Of a DNA stretch of 64,000 bases, positions 3,434-27,641 are shown piece by piece. Below the pieces are notes generated by a model. The model was not told where the DNA came from, did not search any database, and was given only the letters and a program-made list of their open reading frames with translations. The DNA is from Clostridia bacterium (GTDB lineage Bacteria > Bacillota > Clostridia > Oscillospirales > Acutalibacteraceae), in NCBI GenBank assembly GCA_017441385.1, contig JAFRXY010000083.1, positions 1-64,000 of the forward strand, given 5' to 3'. How positions within the stretch are numbered: position 1 is the first letter of the stretch; each line of letters opens with the position of its first letter. Both the position numbers and the translations under genes were made by a program.

Positions 3434-3554
3434 TGTGATTTTCCTCTCTAAAATGAATTATGTTTGGCAATGAACTGTCAGCTTGATGTCGTTTCAGTGG
3501 AAATTCACACTGTCTGTTTCAGAGGAACACCCTGCGAATGTCATCTGAATTCCT

Positions 3555-9500: not shown

Positions 9501-12500
9501 GGTGGTGATGGCCGCCTTATCGCTGTAGAAGAAGGACTCGGGAATCAGATTGGTAATTTCGATGTTTTCTACGTCCGGATCGTCCTCCGTGGCGTCTTCC
9601 CTGCCGTCATTTACCGTGAACTGGCTCATCACGGCCTCGTCCGCCTGCGCGGGCGTGTACTTCTCCACGCTCCAGCCCTTGAACTGATAGGTCATCACAT
9701 CGGAATAACCGGGTATCGTATTCTCGTAAAAATATGGCGTCAGGGTGCTGAACTTCCAATACTTTTCGCCCGATGGGTCGCCGCTAATCGTCTTGAAGGG
9801 ATTGCTGCTCTGTTCGTTTGCCAAGCGGTCTGAAATGCCGTTTCTTGGCAAGAGTTTGGACGGAGTGGGCATGCCGTCGGTATTCATGTCAAAGATGATA
9901 CGGTAATTGTGGACGACCGACCACTGGGCATAGAGAATGTTCTTAGTGCCGTCGTCGTTGCCCTCGTAGTTGTTCACGCCTCGGTAGCGGACGCCTTCAT
10001 CCTGATATCGGTAAACATTCGGATTGTCGCCGAAGCCCGCGCGGATGCGCGCCATGATGGAGGCATCGTCGGCTTTCTTGTTGGAAAGGTACCAGGTGCC
10101 GGAGCCGTCCTGCCGTGTGTTCCAACCGAGCCAGTAGTAGCCTTCCCGTCTGGGAGTGTCTCCGGGGAAGGTCGTGAGGTCAAGGTCATAAATATTGCCG
10201 ATAGTGACGTATCTTGCCGTGGTAGTACCGGAAAGAGTCCCTCCGTTGGCGTCGATATAGAGCGTGCCTCGCTTCTGCCAGTAGGCATAGAGCTTGACGT
10301 TGGCGTAATCCTTATTGTCGATCGTGACAAGATTTTCGGTATTGAATTTATCCTTGGGAACCGAAATATAATGCTGAGAAGGCTCGGTCACCAAAAGGGT
10401 CGCCATCTGTTCCTCGCTCAGGCTGTCCGGTTGATACGGCTCGTATGTCCAGCCCTTTTGCAGGAAGGAATAGTAGTTCGAGTTCTGACCGTAACGCGCT
10501 TCTTTACAGCTCAGACTGGAATAATACACCGTCCACGCGTTGTCCTCATTGGCGAAGGGGTCATTGCTTCCGCTTTCATTCACCGTCACGGTAACCGGCG
10601 ATTTGGAGGAAACCGTTGCTTCGGCGGAGGGTTTGTTGGAATCAAATTCTATGCGGTAGCTGCCTTGATAACGCCATTCGGCATAGAGGGTGATATCCTC
10701 CTGATTTTCCAGAATGAACCGGTATCCCTTATCGTAATGGGTTCCGGTTCCGTCCGCCTTTGTATTCCAGCCGTCCAGGAAATAACTGGTGCGTTTCACG
10801 CCCAGATCAAGCGCGTTCTGGGTGAGATCCGGCGTGCCGGTATATACTTGCGGAGCCGTAGTGGCGGCGTTGTTATAGTATCCGCCGTTCAGGTTGAAGG
10901 TCAGGCGCGCCTGCTTCTTCCAGACGGCATACATCTTCTTGGTGAAACGGTATTCGTCCTTGCTGCTGCCGAGCGAGCCTAACTGAATCATGCTCAGATC
11001 GGGGGTGCCTTCCGCCTTCAGGAATTCCTCATGGGTGACATTACCGGTTCTGACGCCGTTTGTGAAATTATTGTCGTCTGTTTCGCTCCAGCCCTTGAAG
11101 TAATAGACGCGGCCGTCCGCGTCGGCGGAGGTATATTGGGGATTGCCGGTACCGTTTATGCTGCCCTGCGCGGTGCCGTCAGACTTCTCTTCAAACACGG
11201 TGTCGTTCGGAATACTCCCGTTTGCAATGGATTCCACGCCGGAGGGCAGATTGCCCATGTAAAGAATGCGGTAGAGCTGCTTCCACTTGAATTTGAGTTT
11301 CAACTGAGGATGATTCACAAAATTATTGCTTGCTATTGTATATTTTCCGGTGTTGGTATTGACATACAGTCCGCTGATGACAACCTCGTTCGTATCGTTG
11401 TCATAGAGCTGCACAGCGCTCCGTTTATACCCCTGGGCTGTCGGAGCATCATAGGAAAGACCGTCCCGGACTTCGTCGTAATTGAAATGTCCTCCCTCCG
11501 GAATATTCGTCACAACAACCCCGTCCGGAAGGTTCTTATCCACAAAGAGGTCGTACTCATTCGCCTTCCAGACGGCATAGACCGTGGCGTAATAGACCTT
11601 CTCGTCAGGTGCGCCGGGGTCTTCCGCTTTGCAATTGAATTGGTTGAAGGCAATCTCGTTGTTCTCGAGAATCTTGGTGACATCGTTGTCGTCGCTCAGA
11701 CTCCAGCCCTTAAAGGTATAGCCGACGCGGGAGGGATTCCATGTCTGCATGGTCAGGGAATCCTGATTGTGCCGGAGCAGACGGTTATAAACGGTCTTGC
11801 TGTTCTGGTATGAGGAACTGCCGGTAGCGTCGGTCGTGTTCTTTTCATAGGAAAGGACATACTTCCGGTTCCAGATGGCGTAGAATGTGGTATCCTCGGA
11901 CAGAGTGACATCCTGCTGCGCGTTCTGGTAGGAATCACCGAGTCCGTCCGCCTGCGTATTCCATTCCGCAAACTGGTTTTCGCCATAGCTGAATCTGGGA
12001 ACCGTAAAATAATTGCGAAGGGTATTGGAATTGACCTTGCTGCCTGTCATCTGAACCGAGGTGACCGCCGGGTCGTCCCCTATGATACCGCCGTTAGCCT
12101 GATAGGTGATGGTGATGTTGTTATTCACCCATATCGCGTAGAGCGTGGTGTCCTGGGTTAAATGAACGCCGCTCTGATGATCGGCATAACTTGTGCCGGT
12201 GCCGTCCGCTTTTGTATTCCATTCCACGAACTCATATCCGCCGTCTCTTTCAAATTTCGGAACCGTATTATGGTTGCGCAGGGTAATGGCGTCGACATTA
12301 TTGGCTTCCTGCGTCACCTGGGAATAGGTGGTTTCGCCTTCTCTCGCAACGCCTCCGTTGGCGTCGTAGGTGATGGTGATGTTGGTTTTCCATATGGGAT
12401 ATACCGACACGCGGAAACGTCCTTCCAGCTTTTCGGTAAAGAGTCCGACCGGCACTTTCACGTTGGCGGTATCGCCGCAGAACATATCGTCCACTGATTG

Positions 12501-14264
12501 GGAAGTGCTCCAGCCGTAGAAGGTATAGCCTTCCCGGGTGGGCTTTGTGCCGAGATAGTATGTCACAAACTCCTGGTCGGCACTGGACTGAGACAGCCAT
12601 CCGGAAGGCTGCTTGAGTACTTCGCTGCCGTCGTTGGCGGAAGGAAGCACCACCATTTCATATTTCTTTGTCCAATAATCGGTTGTGAATGTAAAGCGCA
12701 CAGGAGGATTGGTTGTAGCGCTAAAGGTCGAGGTGGGCAATGTAGCGCCGCCGGCACGACTAGTGGGTCCGGTCGAAGTGCCGTCTTCTTTATAAGTGGT
12801 CTGTTTCCATCCGTTGAAGGTATAACCCAGCGCAGTAGGATTAGGCAGCGTATAACCGCCGGCAGCTTCGATTTCGGCATACGTTTTGGTTTCCGAATAG
12901 TTGGCAGGCTCCGAAAACGTGGCGGTAGACGGTCCGTTCCAGCTGATGTCATCAAAGGGAACGGCGATACCGTATTTGTCCACAGGATTCAGATCGTATT
13001 CAAACACATAGCTTCTCGAATCCCACTGCGCGTAAAAGTCGGCGGTATAGGATGTACCGTTGGAATCGAGATACAGGTAGTTCGCCGGCATGTGGGTCAC
13101 AATCGGTCCGCTGCGGGAAGTGGACCATCCTTTAAACGAATAACCGCCATTGCTTTCCGGCAGCATGGTCAGTTCATAGCTTTCCGGATCATCTACAGGC
13201 ACTACTCTGATTCGTTTGGAGGACTGAGAGGATATATCGGATGCATTTTTATTGTTATAATAATAGACTACCATATCGTAATACCAGCGTGCGAAGAAGG
13301 TGGCGTCTTGATGCACATCGGAAATACTGGTGCTTGCATTATATTGGGTGCCGCTGAAATTTTCATTCCTATAGAAGTAGACAAACTCCCCTTTTCTCGC
13401 GTTGGAATCCTCATCCACCGCAGAGATATAATTGTCCTTGCTTAGCAGAGAAAATTGGAAAGGATTTTCCTTTTTTGTATCAGTTTTCCCGTTGACCGGG
13501 TCCTTATAGGTAATGTTGATTTTATCCACAAACACAGAATAAAGATCCAGTCGGTTTGTGTATTCGGTTTCGTCCCATGTGCCGAATTCTGTCAACGGAA
13601 GAGAATTGCTGCTGATCAGATCGGAATAATTCTGATAAACCGCATAAGACATATGCTTTCCGCCGTTGCCATCACTTTTTTTTGACCATCCCATGAAAAC
13701 GAGATTTGTACTGTCATAATTGGAATCAGTCAAATTGGACGCAGTAATGACGCTCTCCTCATCATCAGTCGGAAATGTTTTATTGGTCACGATCGTTTTG
13801 GCATTTCCGTTTTTGTCAATATAGTGACAAATCAGTCGATACGGCTTATACCAGATTGCCTTGATGGTAACCTCATAAGTGTTTCCTTCCTCTGAAGATT
13901 GCTTTAGCGAAAAATAACTAAAGTCAATCTGATTATTGGGATTATAATCCTTTGTTGAACCGTCTTGGGTTATCACGCGCCAGCAATGAAAGACCAGCTT
14001 TTTATCGGTAGACGGCTTAGCGCTCACAATATTTCGATTGGTTTTGGAGGAATAGTACCCTCCGCTTCCGTCTGTCTGAACGTCCGTGCCCGAGAACGCG
14101 CTGCCGCCGTTCAGATCATAGTGAATGATGTATGTATCGGTCGCGGCAAAGGCACGCAGGGCAAAATACCCGCTGGCAAAGAGCGTCATCATCGCGCCCA
14201 GCAGGGCAGAAAAATTGATAACGGTGCTTCTTCCGAAATGTGTGATATGTCGTTTGTTCATCAT
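3555..14264 (-). CDS. Giant cell-wall surface protein with 34 Flg_new (InlB B-type) repeats
   Basis: About 3,570 residues. Start chosen at the ATGATG at 14264/14261 because GGAGG lies five to eight bases upstream; an in-frame ATG at 14300 has no such site. A signal peptide (NKRHITHFGRS then a hydrophobic stretch ending ALRAFAA) is followed by back-to-back 60-90-residue modules of the Listeria-Bacteroides repeat type: a Y-x-x-x-G start, F-x-G-W middle and Y-A-x-W end. Counting the terminal strand (LYAIW, VYAVW, FYAQW and variants) I find 34 copies. The C-terminus has SPGTGE, a variant of the LPXTG sorting motif, then a membrane helix and RRKHRNSAKA. The product should be a very long rod covalently anchored to peptidoglycan; an adhesion role is inferred from the family. 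Confidence 0.9.
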   Translation of the reverse strand: MMNKRHITHFGRSTVINFSALLGAMMTLFASGYFALRAFAATDTYIIHYDLNGGSAFSGTDVQTDGSGGYYSSKTNRNIVSAKPSTDKKLVFHCWRVITQDGSTKDYNPNNQIDFSYFSLKQSSEEGNTYEVTIKAIWYKPYRLICHYIDKNGNAKTIVTNKTFPTDDEESVITASNLTDSNYDSTNLVFMGWSKKSDGNGGKHMSYAVYQNYSDLISSNSLPLTEFGTWDETEYTNRLDLYSVFVDKINITYKDPVNGKTDTKKENPFQFSLLSKDNYISAVDEDSNARKGEFVYFYRNENFSGTQYNASTSISDVHQDATFFARWYYDMVVYYYNNKNASDISSQSSKRIRVVPVDDPESYELTMLPESNGGYSFKGWSTSRSGPIVTHMPANYLYLDSNGTSYTADFYAQWDSRSYVFEYDLNPVDKYGIAVPFDDISWNGPSTATFSEPANYSETKTYAEIEAAGGYTLPNPTALGYTFNGWKQTTYKEDGTSTGPTSRAGGATLPTSTFSATTNPPVRFTFTTDYWTKKYEMVVLPSANDGSEVLKQPSGWLSQSSADQEFVTYYLGTKPTREGYTFYGWSTSQSVDDMFCGDTANVKVPVGLFTEKLEGRFRVSVYPIWKTNITITYDANGGVAREGETTYSQVTQEANNVDAITLRNHNTVPKFERDGGYEFVEWNTKADGTGTSYADHQSGVHLTQDTTLYAIWVNNNITITYQANGGIIGDDPAVTSVQMTGSKVNSNTLRNYFTVPRFSYGENQFAEWNTQADGLGDSYQNAQQDVTLSEDTTFYAIWNRKYVLSYEKNTTDATGSSSYQNSKTVYNRLLRHNQDSLTMQTWNPSRVGYTFKGWSLSDDNDVTKILENNEIAFNQFNCKAEDPGAPDEKVYYATVYAVWKANEYDLFVDKNLPDGVVVTNIPEGGHFNYDEVRDGLSYDAPTAQGYKRSAVQLYDNDTNEVVISGLYVNTNTGKYTIASNNFVNHPQLKLKFKWKQLYRILYMGNLPSGVESIANGSIPNDTVFEEKSDGTAQGSINGTGNPQYTSADADGRVYYFKGWSETDDNNFTNGVRTGNVTHEEFLKAEGTPDLSMIQLGSLGSSKDEYRFTKKMYAVWKKQARLTFNLNGGYYNNAATTAPQVYTGTPDLTQNALDLGVKRTSYFLDGWNTKADGTGTHYDKGYRFILENQEDITLYAEWRYQGSYRIEFDSNKPSAEATVSSKSPVTVTVNESGSNDPFANEDNAWTVYYSSLSCKEARYGQNSNYYSFLQKGWTYEPYQPDSLSEEQMATLLVTEPSQHYISVPKDKFNTENLVTIDNKDYANVKLYAYWQKRGTLYIDANGGTLSGTTTARYVTIGNIYDLDLTTFPGDTPRREGYYWLGWNTRQDGSGTWYLSNKKADDASIMARIRAGFGDNPNVYRYQDEGVRYRGVNNYEGNDDGTKNILYAQWSVVHNYRIIFDMNTDGMPTPSKLLPRNGISDRLANEQSSNPFKTISGDPSGEKYWKFSTLTPYFYENTIPGYSDVMTYQFKGWSVEKYTPAQADEAVMSQFTVNDGREDATEDDPDVENIEITNLIPESFFYSDKAAITTVNGTDYLTVTLHAVWKTRAIVHFIANGGYRGRTDSPITEDYRLPGTIFTEDFNKFPGSPGYRRAYHKFIGYCTKTDGTGTWYLTRDQASESNLAKLRATYGDDLTIIKYMDGDEVLFEGKNNGKESNTLYAMWRKINNYRITFDINLPEVKEGEPEVTSSFNPQPQKASGNDNSDTPFIHEDENDGKYWKFSTQTPYARQDKYGKKNLQTYQFKGWSLYRHTADEALTAEIGYDVPDSSQDVDENTEGETVTENNSIQIANKVYKTIFNGDDEDVPVEVWEDENGKEYLSVEVHAVWKERAVLRLIANRNQKGQSDNDGESQYIFTGSIYKENITGMSGYTFTWKGHTFIGYNTKRDGSGTYYVTEYWKNRINNNHYLPDGWEDNAVIGTSSSPVFEGKDNGETPNVLYGQWVRNYALKYHLNYLDSTSDSWVSDSGNDYLCNVNYEMMDWTETMEDGTSSTTSVYPYHNLRDMLPYAKKQQANNKNYYFMGWSWEKVEGPVDSYDTSKIVDRAEFNDLYETDETKWHFKAPTGGDNKYRGDIYAVWSAEPYKIAFDRNTRKTDSDISKPKESHIHNETFPSDRELSYHDIVNGYTFSEAIPTADYYTFAADKMWNTTYIRKSNSNPVNGKVKDGSRFSLSTFRNAQDSTVTVIANWVPNVYHVHYGWEKYTNSSTSPATETDKVVKDYHYETAVQIADGVEPPDYSDLHVHFVGWELVSSEWAGLSADQKVLAADGATDIRELNPGDTFTMPGEDLYFIARYNADTVSVTYKPGEGTGAPVIEHPVYNSSHVVKTFGDTGFTPPENQSFSGWKLTIGGADSTKYTTEPGIPIEHLTDNIVYTAQYKDNLYTVKYELENGSADPNSDLAALLGTGSAYALPPESDPVKVGKTVQVADPLEVGGYIFTGWKLNGTPVGATVTMQSGGVTLTGTFEPVTYTLHYLTNRKAADSGTVDDSEVGEPVTFQRKNLQKDGTGEYYAFSADRTPETPAGYTFTGWSTTRTGEDNTAPKLYVVCTANPDSVSPYYVYGQWRNWNYLVQYQTAHGTAPDPQPFTLSEVMTGEARISQTVPAESGYDFLSWVISNGISKTFHKDDLSDNEKNVIPRALFVENAEGGSGVATAIAHWNKLYRLHFDLDGGRYEGGTKNSIDAKEFAFEEDVTSAKMSDIGVTLPTDMTKADGSTFDKWQLEIRDSSGNVTKTLTYNAGDIPLSEFILLDGRFTATLKALWKAPDAHEVTYLLTADSALQGTATPSEAPHAKDETFRVAQPLTAKGYTFSGWYQVENESDITDSTEEIRDAREFTMPAHDVTFWGRFTVNSYPVQYYDSNGTTQLTSFRKPYGTEITVGQDETGTEITPEMDGYHFVRWERMTGSQTTGSDGQEIPSPVTSGTTQTFRMPDGTVKYRAVYEKLYTLVYNANGGSNPLPASVNFAAQEKAGSTQPFDYTEATLPTREHYRFLGWNTSSEGTSRQESVTVAYGDSYSLDGDSERFIVPVYALWEGSCTVTYTVENAPEGYDVPESFRRFAGDQFPVEAVPELTGYDFSGWHYNDNGTDKVYANGETFTMPSKNVTFTGSFTPWIYTLFFKDSLTDADLGSQTVTYSQFSANGSGILIERNDPEKSGFTFKGWDKSKTSTAPAYQKGDSVTGFDQNRAATVYAIWAKDLRVTYEIRLLGGNNDPSASSYEVPVDETVYHPGDSVTVAPKLNVEGYEFHGWQKDGEDVTAFDMPSESVVLIGWFTKPGGDEVVHITYRSGIPKDAADYKPDMNEPYDVPITKGQPHKIIAHDSDLLRYVRDTTKYTFLGWKVTNASSGGSGTHPAPRSGGNDDGLMADGATIQNVDSSITLTGQWKEVSTKTFKLTYDGNGATSGNVPVDTTAYKGGESVLVAAQGNLARTGCTFKEWNTRKDGSGKGYRGGQDAINMPQSDVTLYAIWVNNDGKIVPSPGTGESNVPIALAFSAFTLSLFSIAVLIRRKHRNSAKA
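3700..14150 (-). repeat. Array of 34 diverged Flg_new protein repeats
   Basis: The coding sequence is a tandem array of modules averaging about 100 residues including linkers. Two subtypes are visible: short modules of 65-75 residues near the C-terminus, and longer double-hairpin modules of 110-150 residues with a Y-x-F-K-G-W-S core in the middle. DNA-level identity between modules is low, so the expansion is old. Confidence 0.85.
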
Positions 14265-14300
14265 GATGACCTCCGAAAACTCAATAGACAGAAGATACAA

Positions 14301-16697: not shown

Positions 16698-16709
16698 GGT
16701 TAAATTTCC

Positions 16710-16722
16710 ACTATTCCCACTC
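16710..16722. repeat. Attachment site, left copy (att core)
   Basis: ACTATTCCCACTC, identical to 26105-26117. On the minus strand it reads as the final guaA codons Glu-Trp-Glu-stop. Confidence 0.85.
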
Positions 16723-16738
16723 TACCGATTGAACCCAC

Positions 16739-17159: not shown

Positions 17160-17561
17160 TTATCTGCTGACACCCAATTGCTCCATCAAAGCGCGCTGGA
17201 GAATGGCAGAAAAATTGATATGCTGCTTTTCGGCGGCTTCATTCAGCCATGCCGGAATGGTGCAATTCTTCCGCACGGCGCGATTGGCAAGCCTGCGCCG
17301 GTACTCTTCAAAATCAACGTCAATCAGAGTAGCGACAGCTCCCGCCGGAACATCAAGGCTTGATAGCTCGGACGGTTCCGGAACGGTGCGCCCCGCGTCC
17401 GCCTCGGTGATTGCCCACAGGCTCAGCGCGTCCCTTGCCATGTCCATACATTCCGCTAAGTTCTCCCCCTGTGTGCCTCGGTCAATGTCAGGGATTTCTA
17501 CATAGTGCGTTGCCTCGCCGCTGCTTTTCGGATAAATGATAATGGGATATACTGATTTCAT
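17160..17561 (-). CDS. hicB: HicB-family antitoxin
   Basis: 133 residues from the ATG at 17561, chosen because GGAG stands eight bases upstream; a GTG at 17570 overlaps that site. The N-terminal part is the HicB partial RNase-H fold (YPIIIYPKSS, VEIPDIDRGTQGENLAECM, ARDALSLWAITEADAG). The C-terminal part (RAVRKNCTIPAWLNEAAEKQ, NFSAILQRALMEQLG) is a ribbon-helix-helix DNA-binding domain. HicB neutralises HicA by direct binding and represses the operon. It follows hicA on the same strand; together they form a toxin-antitoxin pair at the left edge of the island, where it may stabilise the element. Confidence 0.88.
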   Translation of the reverse strand: MKSVYPIIIYPKSSGEATHYVEIPDIDRGTQGENLAECMDMARDALSLWAITEADAGRTVPEPSELSSLDVPAGAVATLIDVDFEEYRRRLANRAVRKNCTIPAWLNEAAEKQHINFSAILQRALMEQLGVSR

Positions 17562-17620
17562 CGTGTCCACTCCTTCAAATGCGCATAGTAAGGGGGAAGC
17601 CCCCGAAGGGAGGCAAGAGC

Positions 17621-17797
17621 CTATTTTTTCAGCCCTTGCCTTTTGATGATTGCCTTTGCCAACTGTTCATTGATTTCTCTGTGTCGCGGGATCGGCTCGG
17701 TTGCCGTTCCGTTGGTGTAAACATCGTGATTTCCACCGTCTCTCAGGAAATACCAGCCGTTGGCTTCCAGCAGCTTGATAAGGTCTCTGCGCTTCAT
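17621..17797 (-). CDS. hicA: HicA-family mRNA interferase toxin
   Basis: 58 residues translated by hand: MKRRDLIKLLEANGWYFLR, then DGGNHDVYTNGTATEPIPRH, then REINEQLAKAIIKRQGLKK. The double-stranded-RNA-binding-like fold of HicA is recognisable, with the catalytic His in GGNHDVY and the later PRHREI motif. It cleaves mRNA on translating ribosomes when free of HicB. It starts at an ATG at 17797 after AAGGGGGAAAG and has its own strong promoter upstream. The gap to hicB is about 60 bp and contains a GGGGG-AAG-CCCCC hairpin. Confidence 0.88.
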   Translation of the reverse strand: MKRRDLIKLLEANGWYFLRDGGNHDVYTNGTATEPIPRHREINEQLAKAIIKRQGLKK

Positions 17798-18091: not shown

Positions 18092-18334
18092 TTAATCCGT
18101 CTCGCTGCTGCCCTGTTCCTGCTGCCGGTCAGCGTCATAATACTCTAAGATGTCGCCGGGCTGACAGTTCAGCAGCTCGCAGACTAAAGATAGATTATCT
18201 GTGTTTACAATCTCACCATCACGGAATTTCTGTATAGTGCTTTCACTCATTATCTTGTCTTTTCTCAGCTTGTATGTGCTATACCCCGCCGCTTTAAGAG
18301 CTGCCAGCACGTCGATTCTGTACTTAATGGCCAT
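18092..18334 (-). CDS. Small Cro/CI-type (XRE, HTH_26-like) regulator
   Basis: 80 residues, nearly all a single helix-turn-helix domain: YRIDVLAALKAAGYSTYKLR, then MSESTIQKFRDGEIVNTDNL and LSLVCELLNCQPGDILEYY. Such small YozG-like regulators control neighbouring genes. It is transcribed away from the HIRAN operon, and the intervening 220 bp holds two opposing promoters with matching operator-like repeats, so it likely represses both itself and the HIRAN genes. Confidence 0.85.
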   Translation of the reverse strand: MAIKYRIDVLAALKAAGYSTYKLRKDKIMSESTIQKFRDGEIVNTDNLSLVCELLNCQPGDILEYYDADRQQEQGSSETD

Positions 18335-18402: not shown

Positions 18403-18431
18403 ATTATAGCATAATATACACGAAAAATCAA
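18403..18431 (-). promoter_or_regulatory. Promoter of the small XRE gene
   Basis: Minus strand TTGATT, 17 bases, TATAAT. The minus-35 box touches the operator-like GTATACTATA at 18433-18442. Confidence 0.75.
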
Positions 18432-18432
18432 T

Positions 18433-18510
18433 GTATACTATACACTAAAATAAAGTGTATGTTTGTTTACTTTGCCAATAGACATACACGAATAATTAGT
18501 GTATACTATA
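18433..18510. promoter_or_regulatory. Pair of operator-like repeats
   Basis: The 10-mer GTATACTATA occurs at 18433-18442 and again at 18501-18510, embedded in dyads with flanking GTGTAT/ATACAC half sites. Additional half sites lie at about 18455-18460 and 18483-18489. One copy abuts the leftward promoter and the other overlaps the rightward minus-10. Confidence 0.65.
18479..18507 (+). promoter_or_regulatory. Promoter of the HIRAN operon
   Basis: TAGACA, 17 bases, TATACT, about 50 bp before the HIRAN gene. The minus-10 lies inside an operator-like repeat. Confidence 0.6.
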
Positions 18511-18557: not shown

Positions 18558-18995
18558 ATGAACACCATCAAGACACTCAGATCAAAGGTCATGACAATCG
18601 CAAACCGCTTTGTCAAGAACGGACTGCCCCGCCGCATGGCAATGATCAAAGCGTGGGGCATCGCAAAGAACCCCGACATCGACACAAAGGTGAAGGGCGT
18701 GACCGTCGGACGCAGACAGGAAGCAATCGCCCACCTTCGCCGCTATGCCGCCGTTGACATCTCCATCACGCTGGAACGCGAGAGCGGCAACGCTGCCGAC
18801 AGCAACGCCGTGGCTGTGATCGCCACAGTGAAGGGCAAAGGAAGCTACCAGATCGGCTACCTGCCCCGCTACCTCGCCGCCGTAGTTGCGCCGCTCATGG
18901 ACGCACACAAGGCAGTAGCGGCAGCCTTCCAGGAAGTGAGAGGAGGCGAAATAGCAAAGCCAAATTTCGGGCTTGCAATCGGTATCACGATATAA
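18558..18995 (+). CDS. HIRAN-domain protein
   Basis: 145 residues from the ATG at 18558, preceded by AAAGGAG; an earlier in-frame ATG at 18459 overlaps the promoter region. An N-terminal basic helix region (RFVKNGLPRRMAMIKAWGI) precedes a HIRAN domain: VTVGRRQEAIAHLRRY, ISITLERESGNAADSNAVAV, then YQIGYLPRYLAAVVAPLMDA. HIRAN modules bind 3' ends of single-stranded DNA in HLTF-type remodellers and occur alone or fused to nucleases in phages and mobile elements. First gene of a plus-strand operon under its own repressor-controlled promoter. A role in replication or phage interaction is inference. Confidence 0.8.
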   Translation: MNTIKTLRSKVMTIANRFVKNGLPRRMAMIKAWGIAKNPDIDTKVKGVTVGRRQEAIAHLRRYAAVDISITLERESGNAADSNAVAVIATVKGKGSYQIGYLPRYLAAVVAPLMDAHKAVAAAFQEVRGGEIAKPNFGLAIGITI

Positions 18996-19118
18996 AGAAA
19001 AGCCCCATACAGCAACACCCGACCAAAGGACGCTGTATAGAGCCAAGAACCCGCCGGAGCGGATAAGATCATTATAGCCTATCCGCTCCACAAAATCAAG
19101 TACAAGGAAGATTGAAAA

Positions 19119-19358
19119 ATGAATTATAATACATTGTACAAAGCCGTAGAAGATGATATTATTGAATTAAGCGAAACCAAAGCCGCAGAAGAGACTGTCA
19201 GCAGACTGCTCGACGCGCTCAAAGAAAAAGACCCGGAACTGTTCTTCCAGATGGACAGCGCAATCGGCAGACTTGCAAGAGCTTATGAAAAGCAGGGATT
19301 TGTCGGTGGTCTCGCAACATCCATAGCAATATTGATACTGAGAAACACAAGGAGGTGA
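19119..19358 (+). CDS. Small protein of unknown function
   Basis: 79 residues (NYNTLYKAVEDDIIELSETK... AAEETVSRLLDALKEKDPEL), predicted mostly helical and acidic, with a Gly-rich hydrophobic C-terminal stretch (GFVGGLATSIAILIL). I do not recognise the family. It starts about 120 bp after the HIRAN gene with GGAAG upstream, and the next gene follows four bases later, so the two are probably translated from one mRNA. Confidence 0.65.
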   Translation: MNYNTLYKAVEDDIIELSETKAAEETVSRLLDALKEKDPELFFQMDSAIGRLARAYEKQGFVGGLATSIAILILRNTRR

Positions 19359-19362
19359 GCCG

Positions 19363-19602
19363 ATGGAAGAAGGACATATTGTACTCGACCTTATGTTCGG
19401 CAAAACGCGAGTGATGATCTGCGACGATTACTGTGTGCAAGAGGAAGAAGAAATTGACAAAATACTCCGTAGAGTCGGGGAAATCGTTGTAAAGCATTTA
19501 TCAGCAGCAGCGACAGAAAAAGTCGTAAGAGAAATTAAAATCGAGAGGAGCAAGAAATTATCTGCGGAGAAAAAAGAGTCTATTGATAGCGATTCTATCT
19601 AA
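19363..19602 (+). CDS. Small charged protein of unknown function
   Basis: 79 residues (EEGHIVLDLMFGKTRVMICD... EEEIDKILRRVGEIVVKHLS) ending in a Lys/Glu/Ser-rich tail. GGAGG lies inside the end of the preceding gene, eight bases before this ATG, giving tight coupling. Family not recognised; no membrane segment or metal motif. Confidence 0.65.
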   Translation: MEEGHIVLDLMFGKTRVMICDDYCVQEEEEIDKILRRVGEIVVKHLSAAATEKVVREIKIERSKKLSAEKKESIDSDSI

Positions 19603-19956: not shown

Positions 19957-19982
19957 ATTGCGTTGCTCCTTTTTTGGTAAAC

Positions 19983-20158
19983 TCTTGGTACACTTTTGGT
20001 AAACTCCTATTTCTACTGTGTTGTACCACTTTTGTACCACTTTTGTATAACTTTTGTCTAACCCTTTTGCACACTAATTGCACACTGATTGTAAACCGAA
20101 TTTTTGAAAAAACGCGCTACTTTTGCTATACTTTTGACCTACCCTTGACCAACTTTTG
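19983..20158. repeat. 11-bp-phased direct repeat array (ACTTTTG)
   Basis: ACTTTTG occurs at 19992, 20028, 20039, 20050, 20119, 20130 and 20152, with degenerate copies (CCCTTTTG, ACCCTTG, CTCTTGG) at about 19984, 20062 and 20141. Runs keep exactly 11-bp spacing (20028-20039-20050 and 20119-20130-20141-20152), one helical turn, as in iteron or centromere-like protein-binding arrays. Confidence 0.75.
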
Positions 20159-20255
20159 ACCAACCGTTTATTAGCAATAAGACGGCTGGTCAAAACGCAG
20201 GTCAGACCGAAAAGAGAGGTAAAGTGGATTGCTCTTAATAAGCCGTAAAACCCAC

Positions 20256-20284
20256 TTGTAAACAGCGGCGAAACATGGTATAAT
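20256..20284 (+). promoter_or_regulatory. Promoter for a possible small RNA
   Basis: TTGTAA, 17 bases, TATAAT on the plus strand. No plus-strand gene follows; a terminator stands about 30 bases downstream of the expected start. Confidence 0.55.
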
Positions 20285-20290
20285 ATACTT

Positions 20291-20354
20291 ACGGTTAATA
20301 TCCGCCGTGCAGTATGGAGCATTCCCCGCGCCGCTTTGGGGAATGCTCTTTTTT
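20291..20354 (+). ncRNA. Candidate 64-nt island small RNA
   Basis: Bounded by the promoter at 20256-20284 and the terminator hairpin at 20317-20354. It has no start codon with a ribosome site. It lies opposite any transcript reading through from the Xis-like gene, so it could be a countertranscript. Inference from signals only. Confidence 0.4.
20317..20354. terminator. Rho-independent terminator
   Basis: GAGCATTCCCC, a 10-base loop and GGGGAATGCTC followed by TTTTTT on the plus strand. It directly abuts the stop of the minus-strand Xis-like gene and may serve both directions. Confidence 0.8.
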
Positions 20355-20537
20355 CTATGCGTACATTCTCTCTGTAAAATATTTCTTGGAAATGCGCCCG
20401 CGCACGGTCAGATAGCCTTTGGCTTCCAGCTCGGCATTCAGGCGGGCGATAATCCGGTAAGCCGTCGGAACGGATACCGACAGTATTTCCGCGATGTCGG
20501 GCGCAAAATAGTAATACTGGTTTTCTCTCTGTGCCAT
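20355..20537 (-). CDS. Small HTH protein, probable excisionase/Xis-like
   Basis: 60 residues: AQRENQYYYFAPDIAEILSV, PTAYRIIARLNAELEAKGYL, then VRGRISKKYFTERMYA. This is a complete winged-helix/AlpA-MerR-like DNA-binding unit in which the conserved V-S-x-P-T-A-Y-R-I-I helix is followed by a beta wing ending in K-Y-F. Proteins of this size and sequence are common in Clostridial integrative elements and are thought to direct excision or regulate replication. It lies between the 11-bp array and the iteron-flanked origin. Confidence 0.75.
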   Translation of the reverse strand: MAQRENQYYYFAPDIAEILSVSVPTAYRIIARLNAELEAKGYLTVRGRISKKYFTERMYA

Positions 20538-20900: not shown

Positions 20901-23051
20901 TCAGCCGGAAAGAATACTGTCAAAGTCATATTTTACCGAATAGGTTTTTACGGAAAGTCCATTGATACGTTCCTGTTTCTGCAAACGACCATTGTCAAAA
21001 ATAAGCAAGCCGCGATTCTTCCATTGCTTCGTGACAGCCTTTACATCGTAGCCCCTGTTCTCCAGAAAGTCACGCAAAGCGGCGACGATAATAACAATGC
21101 GCTTATTCTTAACGTCTATTTTTCCGTAGCACTGCCGCGCCGCTTCTTTTGGATATTCCTGAAATGAAGTTGCTGATTCCTCAAAACAATGTCTGTGTTC
21201 CGTCACCCAAGCGATCACATCATCAAATGCACGTTCCCCAGTATTGATAGCGGCGGTATCCTTGACAAACGGCGCAATATCTTCATCTTCCAGCGGGTCA
21301 ATGTGATAATCGTCGAACAGCACCCTGCAAATCAGCTTGTCTACTTCCAGCAGAAACGCCGCCGCTGCCGCTTGCTTCTGATCGGTGTGCATCAGGCGGG
21401 TTATACGTGCGGTGCGGACGTTCAGGTTTTGCCTGATCCCGTTCCACGTTTGAGGATCCGCGATCTTTGCCTTGATGCAGGCCGTCCACTGCTCACCCAC
21501 CAAGCCGAAATTTTCGGAGATGACATCCACGAAAGCAGCGGGGTCGTCAAAGAGCCTGTCCCCGATCTCCACCTCTATCACACGGTTCTTTGCGCCGCCG
21601 GAGCTGTTTTCTTTGGTGACGGGTTCCTCACCGGTCAGCAGCAGGATATTGTGCCAGTGCTCGATGGTTTGCAGCTTATCGGTGGCGCTGCCTCTGGTGC
21701 GTCCTTCGCCGCCGCTGTGGTTCATAATCAGATCGTTGTAAGCGGCGGTTTTGTTTCCGTAATCCTTCAACGTTTGCAGTTCGTCCATGAAGACAGGAAG
21801 GTCACCGAAGAAGCCATAGAGCCGCTCACGACCGACAGCGGTTGTATCCAGTGTGGAGATAAGCGCGTTCTGTGCAGCGGGATTGCCCCAGCAGCTTGCC
21901 GCCGCCTGCAGTGCCACGGTCTTGCCTGTTCCGGTTGCTCCCCACAGCTCCACCGCAAAGAGCTGCCTCCCCAGCGGCTTCATCAGAATGCTGCCCAGAC
22001 TTGCCGCGATCGCCAGCCGGAGCGGCGTGCTGTCTGATTTGCTGCCCGTCTTCCAGTACTGCTCCGCCATCACGTGCAGCCATGTGTCAAGACTTCCCTT
22101 CTTCTCAAAGTGCCTCAGCTTGTCTTCCAGCAAAGGATCTCCGTCAAACTCGATACGCGCCCTGTCATACGGCATAAAACAGCGGTACGGGTCGGAATCG
22201 TCACCCATCCAGCCCAGACGCGCCGCCGAATATTTGGAAGGAATCGCGCCGCTTGCCTGATTGCGGTCAAGCAGAACGGTGAAATAATCCATAGCATTGT
22301 GCGCCTTGTCGCTGTTGATGGAAATGCCAAACTTGGCAAGGCTTTTGATGCGTGTCACATCGGCGAGCGTTTCCCTGTCAACTGTGGCATATTGCCAGCC
22401 GCCGAACGTAACACTTGGATTATGAAAGGCAAGACGGATTTTCTCGGTGTGACTGTCGATATTGCGGTAAATGCAGACCGGCACCACCGCATGGGGGAAG
22501 ACGGTGCGCGTCACGCTTCCTTCGGGCGTTTCCACCGTGTAATATATCTTCTTGCCGTCATATTCATACTTTCCGGAATACAGCGGCGCCCGCAGATCGG
22601 GCAGATCAGGAAACTCCACCGTATTGTTATCGTTGGCGGCATTGAGTGCCTGATAATACAGGCGTTCTTCCTCTTTGCGTCGCTTCTCCTCGTCCTTTGC
22701 CGCTTTCCGTATGGCAGACACCATATTGTCAAAACTTCGCTTGTTGTCCGATTTTTCCCGCAGCGCGGCGGTTTTGCGCTCGCAATACGTTGGGTCGCTT
22801 TGCCAGAGCAGGCGGAAAGCGGCGATCACGTCCGCGTCTGTCACGAATTTCCCCGCGCCTTCCGCGTCGACGGTCAGCGATTCCGTCAACTGCCGCGCCG
22901 CTTCTTCCTCCGTCATCTTACCGCTATCGTCACCCACCACGGACAGGATTGTCATATCTTCAGATTCGCCGCTTTCGGAAGAATCCACTTCCATTTCCGC
23001 AAATGCTTCAAGCTGTTGTGGCGTCAGCCTCGTGCTGTATGAAGGCTGCAA
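20901..23051 (-). CDS. DUF927-type replicative helicase (Rep-like)
   Basis: 716 residues. The second half is an ATPase with Walker A GATGTGKTVALQAAAS near residue 384, Walker B DLPVFMDELQT, and DUF927 surroundings (PLRLAIAASLGSILMKPLG, LLLTGEEPVTKENSS). The N-terminal 130 residues are acidic and likely a linker. The start is a TTG at 23051 with GAGGTG seven bases upstream, and it overlaps the primase gene by 44 bp, showing translational coupling. Together the two proteins should form a primase-helicase for island replication, acting on the iteron region that begins four bases after the stop. Confidence 0.85.
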   Translation of the reverse strand: MQPSYSTRLTPQQLEAFAEMEVDSSESGESEDMTILSVVGDDSGKMTEEEAARQLTESLTVDAEGAGKFVTDADVIAAFRLLWQSDPTYCERKTAALREKSDNKRSFDNMVSAIRKAAKDEEKRRKEEERLYYQALNAANDNNTVEFPDLPDLRAPLYSGKYEYDGKKIYYTVETPEGSVTRTVFPHAVVPVCIYRNIDSHTEKIRLAFHNPSVTFGGWQYATVDRETLADVTRIKSLAKFGISINSDKAHNAMDYFTVLLDRNQASGAIPSKYSAARLGWMGDDSDPYRCFMPYDRARIEFDGDPLLEDKLRHFEKKGSLDTWLHVMAEQYWKTGSKSDSTPLRLAIAASLGSILMKPLGRQLFAVELWGATGTGKTVALQAAASCWGNPAAQNALISTLDTTAVGRERLYGFFGDLPVFMDELQTLKDYGNKTAAYNDLIMNHSGGEGRTRGSATDKLQTIEHWHNILLLTGEEPVTKENSSGGAKNRVIEVEIGDRLFDDPAAFVDVISENFGLVGEQWTACIKAKIADPQTWNGIRQNLNVRTARITRLMHTDQKQAAAAAFLLEVDKLICRVLFDDYHIDPLEDEDIAPFVKDTAAINTGERAFDDVIAWVTEHRHCFEESATSFQEYPKEAARQCYGKIDVKNKRIVIIVAALRDFLENRGYDVKAVTKQWKNRGLLIFDNGRLQKQERINGLSVKTYSVKYDFDSILSG

Positions 23052-23706
23052 TTTCGTTCACCTCGTTCCCACAGGTTTTGTATAAATCCAATAATTCTTC
23101 ACCGCTGCCGGTAATCAGAATATCACACAGATATTCGGCGCGGTCCAGATGCTGCAACGAATAGACAAAGCGCGGGTCCAGCGGTGCATCTTCACTTTGC
23201 GGCGCGTGATCTCTTCGCCAGTACCACAGCATTCTGTGATAGTCCGTCAATGTCCTGCAAGCCTTTTGACACCATGCGTCAAACCGTTCCTGCAATACCC
23301 GCGCCCGTTCCCGCTGCGCCTGCTGCGCCGCTGCTATGCGTTTTTCCGCAATAGTGAGCGGTCGGTTATGGAGCGGCAAATCCAGCGTAAAATCATCATT
23401 GAGCCGTCGCAGCGCGTCCATGCGCGACAGCTTCAGCAGCTTAGCGGCCAGCTCTATTACGTCGCCGCCCTCATTGCAGCCAAAGCAATACCACAATTGC
23501 TTCTCACGGCTGATTGTGAAGCTCGGTGTCTTCTCACTGTGAAACGGACACAGACATTTGCCATGTCTGTCGAGCTGCAAACCGTACCTTTGCGCAACAT
23601 CGACAATATCCAGCCGTTCCCGCGCTTCCTTGAAAATATCATCCGATATTATCACATCCTCGATATTATTTTTGCTGTTGCGCCGCTCATGAATCTGTGT
23701 TATCAT
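23008..23706 (-). CDS. CHC2 zinc-finger primase-like protein
   Basis: 232 residues. Residues about 30-100 hold the DnaG-type zinc-binding module: VVDVAQRYGLQLDRHGKCLC, PFHSEKTPSFTISREKQLWY, CFGCNEGGDVIELAAKLL, i.e. C-x-x-H and C-x-x-C ligands. The Toprim catalytic domain of DnaG is absent, so this is the template-recognition part only, as often seen in mobile elements where it pairs with a separate helicase. The C-terminal half is helical with a Trp-rich segment (YHRMLWYWRRDHAP) of unknown role. It overlaps the DUF927 gene. Confidence 0.85.
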   Translation of the reverse strand: MITQIHERRNSKNNIEDVIISDDIFKEARERLDIVDVAQRYGLQLDRHGKCLCPFHSEKTPSFTISREKQLWYCFGCNEGGDVIELAAKLLKLSRMDALRRLNDDFTLDLPLHNRPLTIAEKRIAAAQQAQRERARVLQERFDAWCQKACRTLTDYHRMLWYWRRDHAPQSEDAPLDPRFVYSLQHLDRAEYLCDILITGSGEELLDLYKTCGNEVNEIAAFIQHEADATTA

Positions 23707-23784
23707 GGAAGCGGCGGCTTTTCGTTTGTTGCCGTCATTACGCTCATAGTCTCTTGCTTGGCCGCTGGACTGTGGGCGTTTTTC

Positions 23785-23994
23785 TTATGCCTGTGCGGCT
23801 GCCGGAGCAGCGGTTGCGTTCTTCTCAGTCGCCAGACGGTCGATGATCTCCATAATGCGTGTGGTTTCTTCTTCGTCAAGCTCCTTGCGCAGCTTGCGGG
23901 AAAGGGAACTGTCGCAGATTCCCAATTCGGCCGCCACTTTGTAAAGCTTCACACCTGTTTCCATCGCGTGAAATCTGATTTTTGCGTTCGTCAT
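23785..23994 (-). CDS. Small HTH protein (Str/Cro-like)
   Basis: 69 residues from the ATG at 23994, chosen because AAAGGAG is nine bases upstream; the ATG at 24000 would be only three bases away. Sequence TNAKIRFHAMETGVKLYKVA, AELGICDSSLSRKLRKELDE: a one-domain helix-turn-helix of the type found just after the repressor in integrative elements, followed by an Ala-rich tail. First gene of the replication operon, transcribed from the leftward face-to-face promoter opposite the XRE repressor. Confidence 0.75.
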   Translation of the reverse strand: MTNAKIRFHAMETGVKLYKVAAELGICDSSLSRKLRKELDEEETTRIMEIIDRLATEKNATAAPAAAQA

Positions 23995-24012
23995 TTTCAT
24001 TAACTCCTTTCC

Positions 24013-24189: not shown

Positions 24190-24960
24190 ATGACGAATAA
24201 AATCATTTTTGCAGATAGATTATTTTCGTTAAGAAAAGAAAACAATTTAACAAGACAGAAAGTTTCTGACAGCCTTGGAATTACCCGTGCCGCATTGGAG
24301 TATTATGAAAAAGGTAAACGAACACCGGACGTAAATATGATAGCAAAAATGGCATCATATTATGGTGTTTCAACTGATTATTTGCTGGGGTGTTCCGATG
24401 CAAGATCATCCGATGATAAAATAAGAATTGCTTGTGACGTAACTGGACTTGATGAAAAGCACATAATTACTTTACAATTAGCGAAAAAAGAAAAGCAATT
24501 ATCTGACCAAGTTGATTTGATTGACAATCATATCTCCGTCACATATCTTGAAGTTATTAACTATCTGCTTAGTGCAATTGAACTTTATCCATTCCCATTA
24601 ACAAACCTGATTGATATGCTCTATTTTCTAGGAGATGATAGCAATTTAGGTGATAATACAACTCTTTACCCTATAGGTGGCGTAATGAGTTCTCGTAACA
24701 AAGGTGAAACAATTATGATGACTTCGGAAAGATATCATAACCTGTTGGACCATTCTACAAGAGACAGTTTTGCGGAATTATACGACAAAATACTCAATAA
24801 TATAAGTTCATTTAGATGTTCACAGGATGATGAAACGAGTGAATTATTTTTATTACGACAATTTCTAAATAAGAGCATAGAAGAACTAAATGAAAAAATT
24901 GAAAGTGCAAACAACAGTTTACTCTGTAAAATAAATTCCGATACTGAAGATGAGGAATAA
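24190..24960 (+). CDS. XRE-family repressor (Stl/CI-like)
   Basis: 256 residues. Residues 7-62 form a standard HTH_3 domain: FADRLFSLRKENNLTRQKVS, DSLGITRAALEYYEKGKRTP, NMIAKMASYYGVSTDYLLG. The remaining 190 residues are helical and AT-rich in codon use, unlike most genes here, and have no LexA-type peptidase motif, so derepression by RecA-driven self-cleavage is not evident. This size and placement, immediately before the integrase and divergent from a small HTH gene, matches the Stl repressor of phage-inducible islands, which is released by a helper-phage protein. Start ATG at 24190 after GAAGGAG. Confidence 0.85.
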   Translation: MTNKIIFADRLFSLRKENNLTRQKVSDSLGITRAALEYYEKGKRTPDVNMIAKMASYYGVSTDYLLGCSDARSSDDKIRIACDVTGLDEKHIITLQLAKKEKQLSDQVDLIDNHISVTYLEVINYLLSAIELYPFPLTNLIDMLYFLGDDSNLGDNTTLYPIGGVMSSRNKGETIMMTSERYHNLLDHSTRDSFAELYDKILNNISSFRCSQDDETSELFLLRQFLNKSIEELNEKIESANNSLLCKINSDTEDEE

Positions 24961-24962
24961 CC

Positions 24963-26024
24963 ATGTCAGCATTCAAGAATGATCGCGGCTCATGGACGGC
25001 CAAATTCTACTACACCGACTGGACAGGGAAGCGGCGGCAAAAGAAGAAAGAGGGCTTTGCCACAAAAAAAGAAGCCCAGGCATTCGAGCTGGACTTCTTG
25101 AATAACTGTTCTCGGTCTGTGGATATTTCTTTCAGGAACCTTGTGGAAGCGTATGTGAAGGACTGCAAAGCGCGGTTAAAGCCTACTACGCTTGAAACAA
25201 AAGCGGCCATCATCAACAACCGGATTCTTCCCTATTTCGGAGAGAAGCGCGTGTGTGACATCTCGGTTCACGACGTGCGCCAGTGGCAAACCGAATTGAT
25301 TTCCTCGGAGGACGGCTTTTCGGAGACGTATCTGAAGACGATCCACAATCAGCTTTCGGCCATCTTCAATTACGCCTGCAAGTATTACAAGCTCTCGGAG
25401 AATCCCGCCCGCCTGTGTGGAGCTATGGGAAAGAAAAAGCGGGAGACCATGACCTTCTGGACGCTGGACGAATTCAAGACCTTCCTTCCGGCGGTATCCA
25501 ACAAGCCCGCCTCGGCGGTGATCTTCCCGCTGCTGTTCTATTCCGGCATGAGAGAGGGGGAGCTTCTTGCCCTGACACTCGGAGATTTTGATTTTGTCAA
25601 TCAGACGGTGAGCATCACAAAGACCTTCGCGCAGCTCGGCGGTGAGGACATCATTCAGCCGCCCAAGACACCCAAGAGCCGCCGCTCTATTGTCATGCCG
25701 CCGGAGGTTATGCAGCTTGTCAAGGATTACGCTGCGACGATTTACGACTACCAGCCGGAGCAAAGGCTCTTCCAATTCACCAAATCCTACCTGCATTACG
25801 AAATAAAGCGCGGCTGCAAAGCGTCGGGCGTGAAGCAAATCCGTGCCCATGACATCCGGCATTCCCACGCCTCGCTCCTGATCGAGCTTGGATTTTCGCC
25901 GCTGCTGATCTCGGAGCGGCTCGGACATGAGAACATCGAGACAACGCTTTCGGTCTATTCTCACCTGTACCCGAACAAGCAAAGCGAAGTCGCCGAAAAG
26001 CTGTCGAATCTGATAAAATCCTGA
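24963..26024 (+). CDS. int: Tyrosine-family integrase
   Basis: 353 residues, two bases after the repressor stop. The N-terminus is an AP2-like arm-binding domain (WTAKFYYTDWTGKRRQKKKE), then a core-binding SAM-like domain (ISVHDVRQWQTELISSEDGF), then the catalytic domain with Arg in YSGMREGELLALTLGDF, Lys on the following strand, His-Asp-Ile-Arg-His (HDIRHSHASLL), LGHENIETT and Tyr in TLSVYSHLYP. Tn916/phage-type enzyme that recombines the att cores at 16710 and 26105. Adjacent to the right end and to the guaA 3' end, as is usual for gene-3'-end integrators. Confidence 0.95.
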   Translation: MSAFKNDRGSWTAKFYYTDWTGKRRQKKKEGFATKKEAQAFELDFLNNCSRSVDISFRNLVEAYVKDCKARLKPTTLETKAAIINNRILPYFGEKRVCDISVHDVRQWQTELISSEDGFSETYLKTIHNQLSAIFNYACKYYKLSENPARLCGAMGKKKRETMTFWTLDEFKTFLPAVSNKPASAVIFPLLFYSGMREGELLALTLGDFDFVNQTVSITKTFAQLGGEDIIQPPKTPKSRRSIVMPPEVMQLVKDYAATIYDYQPEQRLFQFTKSYLHYEIKRGCKASGVKQIRAHDIRHSHASLLIELGFSPLLISERLGHENIETTLSVYSHLYPNKQSEVAEKLSNLIKS

Positions 26025-26094: not shown

Positions 26095-26104
26095 GTTCAT
26101 TACT

Positions 26105-26117
26105 ACTATTCCCACTC
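26105..26117. repeat. Attachment site, right copy (att core) in guaA
   Basis: ACTATTCCCACTC, overlapping the last three codons and the stop of guaA, so integration leaves the protein sequence unchanged. Confidence 0.85.
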
Positions 26118-27641
26118 AATCGTTGCCGGTGGCTTGCTGGTGATGTCGTAGACAATGCGGTTGACGTGGCCGACTTCATTGACGATGCGGACGGAGGCGG
26201 TTTCGAGGACGTCATAGGGAATTCTCGCCCAGTCGGCAGTCATGAAGTCAATGGTTTTCACAGCGCGGAGAGCGATGGTGTAATCGTAGGTTCTCGCGTC
26301 GCCCATGACGCCTACCGAACGCATATCGGTCAGCACGGCGAAGTATTGGTTGATATCCCTGCCAAGCCCCGCCTTGGCAATCTCCTCGCGGAAGATCGCG
26401 TCGGCCTCGCGAAGAATATTCAGCTTGTACTCCGTGATTTCTCCGAGACACCGGACGGCCAGTCCCGGGCCGGGGAAGGGCTGACGGAATACCAGACTTT
26501 CCGGAATACCCAATTCCAATCCCGCGCGGCGCACCTCGTCCTTGAAGAGGTAGCGAAGCGGCTCGATGATTTCTTCAAAATCCACGTGCTCCGGCAGTCC
26601 TCCGACATTGTGGTGGCTCTTAATGTTGGCCGCATCCCCCGCGCCGCTTTCGATCACGTCGGGATAGATGGTTCCCTGCACCAGATAATCCACCCTGCCG
26701 AGCTTCTTGGCCTCGGCTTCAAACACCCTGATAAATTCCTCGCCGATTGCCTTGCGCTTCCGTTCCGGCTCGACCGCGCCGGCAAGTCTGTCAAGGAATC
26801 GCTCCTGCGCGTTGACGCGGATCATATTTATATCGAACTGCTCCCGGAAGACACGCTCGACCTCGTCGCCCTCGTTCTTGCGAAGAAGACCGTTGTCCAC
26901 AAAAATGCAGGTGAGCTGCTTGCCGACCGCCTTATGAATCATCACCGCGGCTACCGAACTGTCCACGCCTCCGGACAGGGCGCAGAGCACCTTCTTCTCC
27001 CCTATCTTCTCCCGAAGCGCCGCGACGGTTTCCTCCACAAAGGAATCCATCGTCCAGTCGCCTGCCGCCTTGCACACGTCATAAAGAAAGGCATGAAGCA
27101 TCCTGTCGCCCTCGGCGGTATGCTGCACTTCCAGATGGAACTGCACGGCGTACAGATTGCGGGAACGGTCTTCCATCGCCGCGACAGGGCAGGCGTCGCT
27201 GTGAGCCGATGAAAGGAAGCCTTCCGGCATTGTGGAAATATAATCGGTATGGCTCATCCAGACCACGGTTTTTTCCGCGACCTTTGCAAAGAGTGGGGAA
27301 TTCCGGTCGGTCGCGATCTCCGTCTTGCCGTATTCCCGTACGGGGGCGGCTTTCACTTCGCCTCCAAGAAGGTACGCCATGAGTTGCGCACCGTAGCAGA
27401 TGCCCAGCACAGGAATACCCAGCTCAAAAATTTCCGGCGAATATTTCGGGGATTTTTCTTCATAAACGCTGTTGGGGCCTCCGGTGAAAATCACGCCGAT
27501 ATACCCCTCCGCCCGGATGGCTTCAAGGGGAGTCGTATAGGGCTTCACCTCCGCGTAAACGCCGAGATCGCGCACTCTGCGGGCAATCAATTGGTTATAC
27601 TGTCCGCCGAAATCCAGCACCAGTACCTTCTGATGATCCAT
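26106..27641 (-). CDS. guaA: GMP synthase (glutamine-hydrolysing)
   Basis: 511 residues. It converts XMP, ATP and glutamine to GMP. A class I amidotransferase domain carries the Cys nucleophile in GICYGAQLM and the catalytic His in [10 protein letters not shown]; the family norm at this place is HPEV, so a Pro-to-Leu change stands next to the His. The ATP pyrophosphatase P-loop is [17 protein letters not shown], and the C-terminal dimerisation domain ends TIEWE. Start ATG at 27641 after AAAGGAATGTGAAG. The gene's stop codon lies inside the island's attachment site. Confidence 0.97.

Follow-up and report, generated by a model that had tools for sequence, protein, structure and literature searches.

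A predicted opposite-strand small RNA looks to be the conserved partner of HIRAN on a small integrative island

In the stretch of DNA analysed here (64,000 nt, hereafter the window), a gene for a free-standing HIRAN protein is followed by two small open reading frames (ORFs) and lies on a small integrative island. Our comparisons suggest that the conserved partner of HIRAN looks to be a short RNA predicted on the opposite strand rather than the two small proteins. We give about even odds (a probability near 0.5 for the explanation as a whole) to the reading that this RNA is an antisense RNA acting on early transcripts in the manner of lambda OOP, that the same device serves up to three gene ends of the island, and that HIRAN opens a cargo slot on a small integrative island that replicates itself.

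In BLAST comparisons, the untranslated gap behind HIRAN proved conserved, unlike the ORFs on either side of it. On the minus strand, a small RNA of ~70 nt with two hairpins is predicted (18995..19064); its 3' hairpin is an intrinsic terminator abutting the HIRAN stop codon, and its predicted 5' end was inferred from the -10 box. The predicted sigma-70-like promoter (19071..19099, minus strand) has the -35 box TTGATT (19099-19094) and the -10 box TATAAT (19076-19071) with a spacer of 17, and 3 of 300 shuffles were as good. The -10 box is flanked by a palindrome, GGAGCGGATA / TATCCGCTCC (19056..19089), that covaries between loci. Across loci, the opposite strand shows one order: two boxes 17 bp apart with the palindrome surrounding the -10 box, then a small 5' hairpin, then the terminator, whose U-run touches the HIRAN stop codon.

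The comparison covered 25 distinct HIRAN loci (the window, L006, L015-L018 and L019-L037), with duplicates counted once (L003/L013 are L022, and L004/L014 are L025). About half of them carry the RNA element. A promoter with at least 10 of 12 matches and a -35 box 97-109 nt after the HIRAN stop codon is present in 10 of the 23 loci with enough flank, two of the 25 having too little, and four of these promoters match at all 12 positions; 0-7 of 300 shuffles were as good. L021 provides an eleventh promoter by eye (TTGCAT/TATAAT), further out. By eye, L031 retains only a remnant of the element, and in L024 and L033 the RNA model finds a copy after one extra ORF. L024 and L033 belong to Clostridium methylpentosum DSM 5476 and L025 to Clostridium minihomine, both cultured, with members of the HIRAN family as well as RNA-model matches. 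No element was found after HIRAN in L006, L016-L020, L022, L036 and L037.

In all 46 copies (45 collected plus the second copy in the window), folding as RNA gives a more stable terminator hairpin for the predicted strand than for the other, and the same holds for 11 of 11 HIRAN-linked copies picked without the model. G-U pairs account for 211 of 863 pairs on the predicted strand versus 10 of 620 on the other. Because hairpin stability and G-U pairs both favour the predicted strand, the terminator is, judging from sequence, an element that works as opposite-strand RNA. An alignment of 45 copies (A6; 44 of them distinct) gives a covariation score of 0.724, compared with 0.225 ± 0.014 for shuffled and at most 0.153 for slid alignments; 22 of 23 pairs have two-sided changes, and 93.1% of pairing cells are paired versus 67.0 ± 1.0 when shuffled. 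A6 was fitted to the RNA model R1, which favours the structure. Most copies away from HIRAN were found with a model that held the tested loop and pairs, while the HIRAN-linked copies were not. The palindrome shows no strand preference (15 versus 27 of 42, p 0.096) and almost no G-U pairs, so it probably acts as DNA. Its arms change with compensation, and a single fixed operator site was rejected.

The element has no match in Rfam 15, searched up to an E-value of 5 for the island and up to 1 for 16 other loci, and a literature search found no paper describing this small RNA. Passages of PMC8040213 report 3161 candidate RNAs of human microbiomes, 28 of them near phage or integrase domains, and the small RNA may be among these candidates.

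An earlier note on this DNA had described HIRAN and two small, unfamiliar, tightly spaced proteins as a trio under a dedicated repressor. The genes themselves are sound: the HIRAN ORF, both small ORFs and the divergent HTH repressor are all real. Neither ORF2 (79 aa, 19119..19358, plus strand) nor ORF3 (79 aa, 19363..19602, plus strand) has a Pfam family above cut-off or a PADLOC match, and the earlier note, too, recognised no family for them; the only weak matches are XLF_CC for ORF2 (E 0.0076) and phrog_3050 for ORF3 (E 0.0068). The tight spacing is correct for ORF2 and ORF3, which are 4 nt apart, and not for HIRAN and ORF2, whose 123-nt gap is filled by the conserved, predicted opposite-strand small-RNA gene, which the earlier note had missed. 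As a unit, the trio was rejected. Neither small protein shares a cluster with any ORF of the other 24 HIRAN loci (two of which, L026 and L027, end inside HIRAN), and each was found only in its own genome among 118 relatives. Homology searches found no relatives of ORF2, which is best described as a locus-specific gene after the RNA element. ORF3 resembles a prophage early-operon gene: it is 68% identical in amino acids to a protein of locus L040, and the DNA is 85% identical over 185 bp from the ribosome site (window 19363-19534), a likeness that on sequence grounds is recent exchange between phage and island. In L040, this relative comes after XRE-type genes in an early operon of a prophage that has no HIRAN, and L041 is similar but more distant. 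The earlier note had named lack of co-occurrence elsewhere as the finding that would count against it; we looked for co-occurrence, and since ORF2 and ORF3 have no relatives at other HIRAN loci and the relatives of ORF3 are phage early genes without HIRAN, its absence is what we found for the trio.

The HIRAN protein (145 aa, 18558..18995, plus strand) consists of an N-terminal helical segment of ~55 aa with the motif IANxLVKxG...AMxKAW, followed by a HIRAN domain that matches PF08797 at 46.9 bits (Pfam gathering cut-off 24.7). HIRAN is the sole Pfam domain recognised, and no HipS-like domain was found. A profile search with the protein retrieved HLTF HIRAN structures and lp_0118 at E ~4e-6. 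Its AlphaFold model (pLDDT 79) matches HLTF HIRAN-DNA structures, and Foldseek with this model returned 3k2y, 6kcs and 4s0n (E 1e-4 to 9e-4, TM 0.37-0.44 by query). A D.NA motif is common to the HIRAN protein and HLTF in the alignment, and binding of free 3' DNA ends is putative.

This HIRAN family is rare. It occurs in 4 of 148 relatives (one weak match; own genome included) and, within the order, in 5 of 394 genomes (two of them weak matches; own genome included). One genome-contig scan gave 19 named loci, all in Clostridia. None was found in viral contigs (single-protein and A2 scans) or in the plasmids scanned, and one faecal phage record carries it. That record, L006 (MT836843.1), is an unannotated 'phage' that resembles a small island, with integrase, HIRAN, an RHH regulator and AbiD (PADLOC E 2.7e-63). 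At L023 (9995-10540), the HIRAN frame lacks the usual stop codon and reads through the small-RNA element. Bacterial HIRAN domains near toxin genes on mobile DNA are also known from HipN and HipL proteins, as described in passages of PMC8262856 and PMC11706625. Unlike these, the window protein has neither a kinase partner nor a HipS-like domain, its N-terminal part is a different helical segment, its neighbours are HicAB, and regulator and toxin are interchangeable between loci.

The island spans ~9.4 kb, from ~16.7 to 26.1 kb of the window. It is integrated at guaA (26106-27641, minus strand; Pfam) and bounded by two 24-nt att-like repeats, of which the left (16704..16727) is 83% identical to the right (26099..26122), at the 3' end of guaA. 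From the right, it encodes a tyrosine integrase (24963..26024, plus), an adjoining HTH_3 repressor (24190..24960, plus), a 71-aa HTH protein (23785..24000, minus; phrog_17740), a CHC2 zinc-finger primase part (23008..23706, minus; Pfam and PHROGs), a DUF927 primase/helicase (20901..23051, minus; Pfam, phrog_8841) and a small HTH protein (20355..20537, minus; phrog_989). Cargo occupies the left end, where genes for a HicB-like antitoxin (17160..17570, minus; Pfam HicB_lk_antitox), a HicA toxin (17621..17797, minus; Pfam HicA_toxin) and an HTH_26 repressor are followed by HIRAN, ORF2 and ORF3, divergent from the repressor. All gene calls are simple ORF calls. Short TTTTGG/TTTTGT-rich repeats at 19963-20160, between a 126-aa ORF and the second small-RNA copy, could be origin iterons. 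Just outside the island, a 3581-aa ORF (3555-14300, minus) has many repeats resembling InlB-type surface repeats.

The size of the island, its integrase, direct att repeats, own primase/helicase with CHC2 part and divergent regulators resemble those of PICIs. It differs from them in its site, guaA, and in having no recognised packaging-redirection gene: terS, ppi and cpm were absent from the 11 island ORFs scanned with PHROGs, a scan that divergent versions could escape.

The repressor is a Cro/C1-type HTH_26 protein (18092..18334, minus strand; Pfam 46.3 bits, cut-off 22). Its predicted sigma-70-like promoter, TTGATT-17-TATAAT (18403..18431, minus), is divergent from the predicted sigma-70-like HIRAN promoter, TAGACA-17-TATACT (18479..18507, plus). 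Three operator-like 24-nt repeats with inverted repeats (18411..18510) overlap this promoter pair, one of them the HIRAN promoter. A palindrome of the type ATACAC-N9-GTGTAT also occurs at the corresponding position in the HIRAN promoter of L025, and by eye the gap between repressor and HIRAN is similar in sequence at other HTH_26 loci. Because the repeats sit between divergent promoters and the palindrome type is shared with L025, these candidate operators of the HTH_26 repressor look real.

That HIRAN belongs to an accessory, repressor-controlled module near defence genes, as the earlier note had supposed, is borne out by the other loci. In 22 of 25 loci, HIRAN has a divergent RHH or HTH_26 regulator no more than 1.1 kb away. 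L015 has one that the gene caller missed, no regulator is seen in L031, and the sequence of L029 starts just 157 nt upstream of HIRAN. On the divergent side, 18 of 25 loci have toxin-antitoxin, Abi, Fic, KilA-N or DUF4160/DUF2442/DUF4258 genes, ten of these loci having been scanned directly with Pfam or PADLOC and the other eight assigned by sequence clusters or reading. Besides HicAB in the window, the cargo comprises AbiD (L006, L030), DUF4160 and/or DUF2442 (L015, L021, L026, L027, L031, L036), Fic (L025, L015), PIN (L023), DUF4258 with an MqsA-like gene (L024, L035, L037), a Gp49/HigB-like gene (L032), ParE (L033) and KilA-N, which is PDC-S22 (L028, L034). DUF4160 and DUF2442 are counted here as toxin-antitoxin genes. 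No toxin or defence gene was recognised in six of the 25 loci with an intact divergent flank (L016-L020, L022), and L029 is uninformative. Toxin-antitoxin/Abi cluster genes number 23 in 58.1 kb of divergent side versus 5 in 259 kb elsewhere, the clusters having been picked after viewing that side. Such a recurring cargo slot, with a regulator, a swappable toxin-antitoxin or defence cassette and a DNA-end protein, is a place to seek new defence genes.

The RNA extends well beyond HIRAN. At E up to 0.001, model R1, built from five HIRAN-linked copies, matches 27 of the 394 genomes, mostly without HIRAN, compared with 5 of 394 for HIRAN itself; the matches include a second site in the genome of the window. 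Since model R2 matches 5 of 398 genomes drawn from the phylum, the predicted RNA family is centred on this order; in one other genus, a single genome can have as many as six matches. In 26 of 32 R1 loci (window included), a plus-strand ORF stops no more than 15 nt from the terminator edge, in 25 of them no more than 2 nt from it, and in 23 of 32 the start of another ORF is found 60 nt or less from the promoter edge. The usual upstream gene encodes a ~91-aa protein matching phrog_6244 and the C-terminus of the RecE-like exonuclease family phrog_434, and an SprT-like gene is common downstream.

R2 has three matches in the island. The copy at HIRAN corresponds to 18997-19100 (minus). The second (20255..20354, plus; TTGTAA-17-TATAAT; 33.3 bits, E 1.3e-5) lies ahead of the 19660-20040 gene, with its terminator abutting the stop codon of the HTH ORF at 20355-20537 (minus). 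The third is weak (23671..23784, plus; 21.2 bits, E 0.0044); it lies ahead of the CHC2 primase gene, and the HTH ORF at 23785-24000 (minus) has its stop codon directly at the terminator of this copy. In all three, the terminator edge is 1-2 nt from the stop codon, and only about 2% of all positions are as close as 3 nt to a stop of this kind.

We then propose a model for the HIRAN slot. Upon release of the repressor, by induction or damage, the HIRAN-ORF2 mRNA would be made, and HIRAN would bind free 3' DNA ends while the island replicates or recombines. The small RNA, which is complementary over its full length to the region separating HIRAN from the following gene, would pair with this mRNA as OOP does with cII-O, after which RNase III would cut, or the two genes would become uncoupled or lowered. 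A DNA-binding protein on the palindrome may set the timing of RNA synthesis, and the island may use the same RNA device at up to three gene ends. In the wider family, the constancy of the loop points to a shared binding partner as well. As the slot upstream of the RNA holds a DNA-end protein (HIRAN) or a RecE-tail relative, its role hints at element replication or recombination rather than direct phage killing; the latter would more probably fall to the exchangeable cassette on the far side of the repressor.

Passages of PMC5869508 describe that OOP suppresses CII, that the oop promoter has a LexA site, and that RNase III cleavage occurs outside cII; a table in PMC12197685 gives 77 nt for OOP and 68/69 nt for P22 sar. 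Like OOP, the predicted window RNA is short, is driven by an oppositely directed promoter located between the end of an early gene and the gene that follows (for OOP, a replication gene), and has a putative regulator site in its promoter, all of these being sequence features here. The likeness is one of layout. OOP runs into its gene, whereas the RNA here stops at the stop codon; because the terminator edge sits there and the overlap typical of OOP is absent, we do not file the element as an OOP member. Also unlike OOP, its promoter lies in a covarying palindrome, its loop is invariant in most copies, several copies occur per island, and the partner genes are interchangeable. P22 sar and type I antitoxin RNAs are similar in having a strong promoter and their own terminator, and sar in being a phage antisense RNA of comparable length; in contrast to these, we identified no toxin-like hydrophobic peptide, and the window RNA leaves the ribosome site uncovered. 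It lies beside, not across, the ORF2 ribosome site, and masking of the Shine-Dalgarno (SD) sequence was rejected for the window, where the unpaired SD fraction goes from 0.64 to 0.57. Among ten loci, SD accessibility falls from ~0.7-0.75 to 0.2-0.3 in four (L023, L029, L030, L034) and rises in L028, and we keep SD masking or anti-Shine-Dalgarno release as a side idea only.

Some observations speak against the proposed explanation. The conservation of the loop GCUUUGGUCGGC exceeds what pairing in cis needs, the HIRAN loci L006, L016-L020 and L022 show no element after HIRAN, and six loci have no recognised cargo. The loop keeps 11-12 of 12 letters in 28 of 45 copies despite differing stems, although R1, which found most copies, contained the loop. 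A search of IMG/VR with promoter plus loop as the pattern gave seven contigs, and the stems of some of these are entirely different; the loop was thus fixed by the search. There is a real if minor chance that the RNA acts in trans, its loop meeting a common target such as a host RNA, a protein or transcripts of other elements, with the gene end as a safe seat with a ready terminator; that copies adjoin different genes fits this as well. Against action in trans, RNAduplex gave nothing consistent and no convincing target near gene starts in seven loci, exact loop complements are few in 13 genomes and are mostly the element itself or isolated sites, and five HIRAN-linked copies (L029, L025, L015, L032, L035) lack the loop. 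It is also conceivable, though unlikely, that the transcript is inert and that an operator-bearing promoter with an insulating terminator forms a protein-binding site or a landmark for replication or recombination. The DNA-like behaviour of the palindrome would suit this, but the wobble pairs and covariation in terminator and loop point to selection at the RNA level.

Other readings centre on the proteins. HIRAN could be a DNA-end sensor controlling the divergent toxin-antitoxin/Abi cargo, as putative HipN antitoxins would control HipI kinases. We find this rather unlikely: the density of such genes on the divergent side, with clusters chosen post hoc, is in its favour, yet the cargo families are mutually unrelated, so that a single partner must fit all, and six loci have no cargo. 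The earlier view of HIRAN and the two small proteins as one anti-phage or replication module seems very improbable. HIRAN matches the PADLOC candidate PDC-M03B (E 3.8e-7), the divergent side often holds defence genes, and HIRAN proteins adjoining HipA kinases are called putative antitoxins in passages of PMC8262856; against this, other HIRAN loci lack ORF2 and ORF3, the latter being of phage type, and no HipS-like domain was recognised. It is tempting to speculate, at long odds, on a shared device by which satellites, prophages and conjugative-type elements of one order carry one loop on a fast-changing hairpin. Resident elements would sense or silence each other's early operons via a common partner; the guarded gene in the slot could be HIRAN or a RecE-tail-like one, each replaceable by the other, and toxin-antitoxin/Abi genes would be the payload.

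If the RNA is expressed, it would represent a small-RNA family without an Rfam entry on islands, prophage-like elements and viral contigs of gut Clostridia, and OOP-type antisense control would extend from lambdoid phages to satellites. The family is easy to find by model and cheap to test. A further copy in the genome of the window (L063/L111, G000:C68, 1539-1649, plus) adjoins a divergent RHH gene, a RecE-tail-like 91-aa gene and an SprT-like gene, and YoeB-like and integrase-like ORFs lie farther off by eye. Locus L110 (G691:C25) has three tandem copies (3128-3225, 3521-3618 and 3896-4004) with small RHH-like and DUF6809-like ORFs; it adjoins dnaN-, recF- and murI-like genes by eye and forms a cassette array unlike phage.
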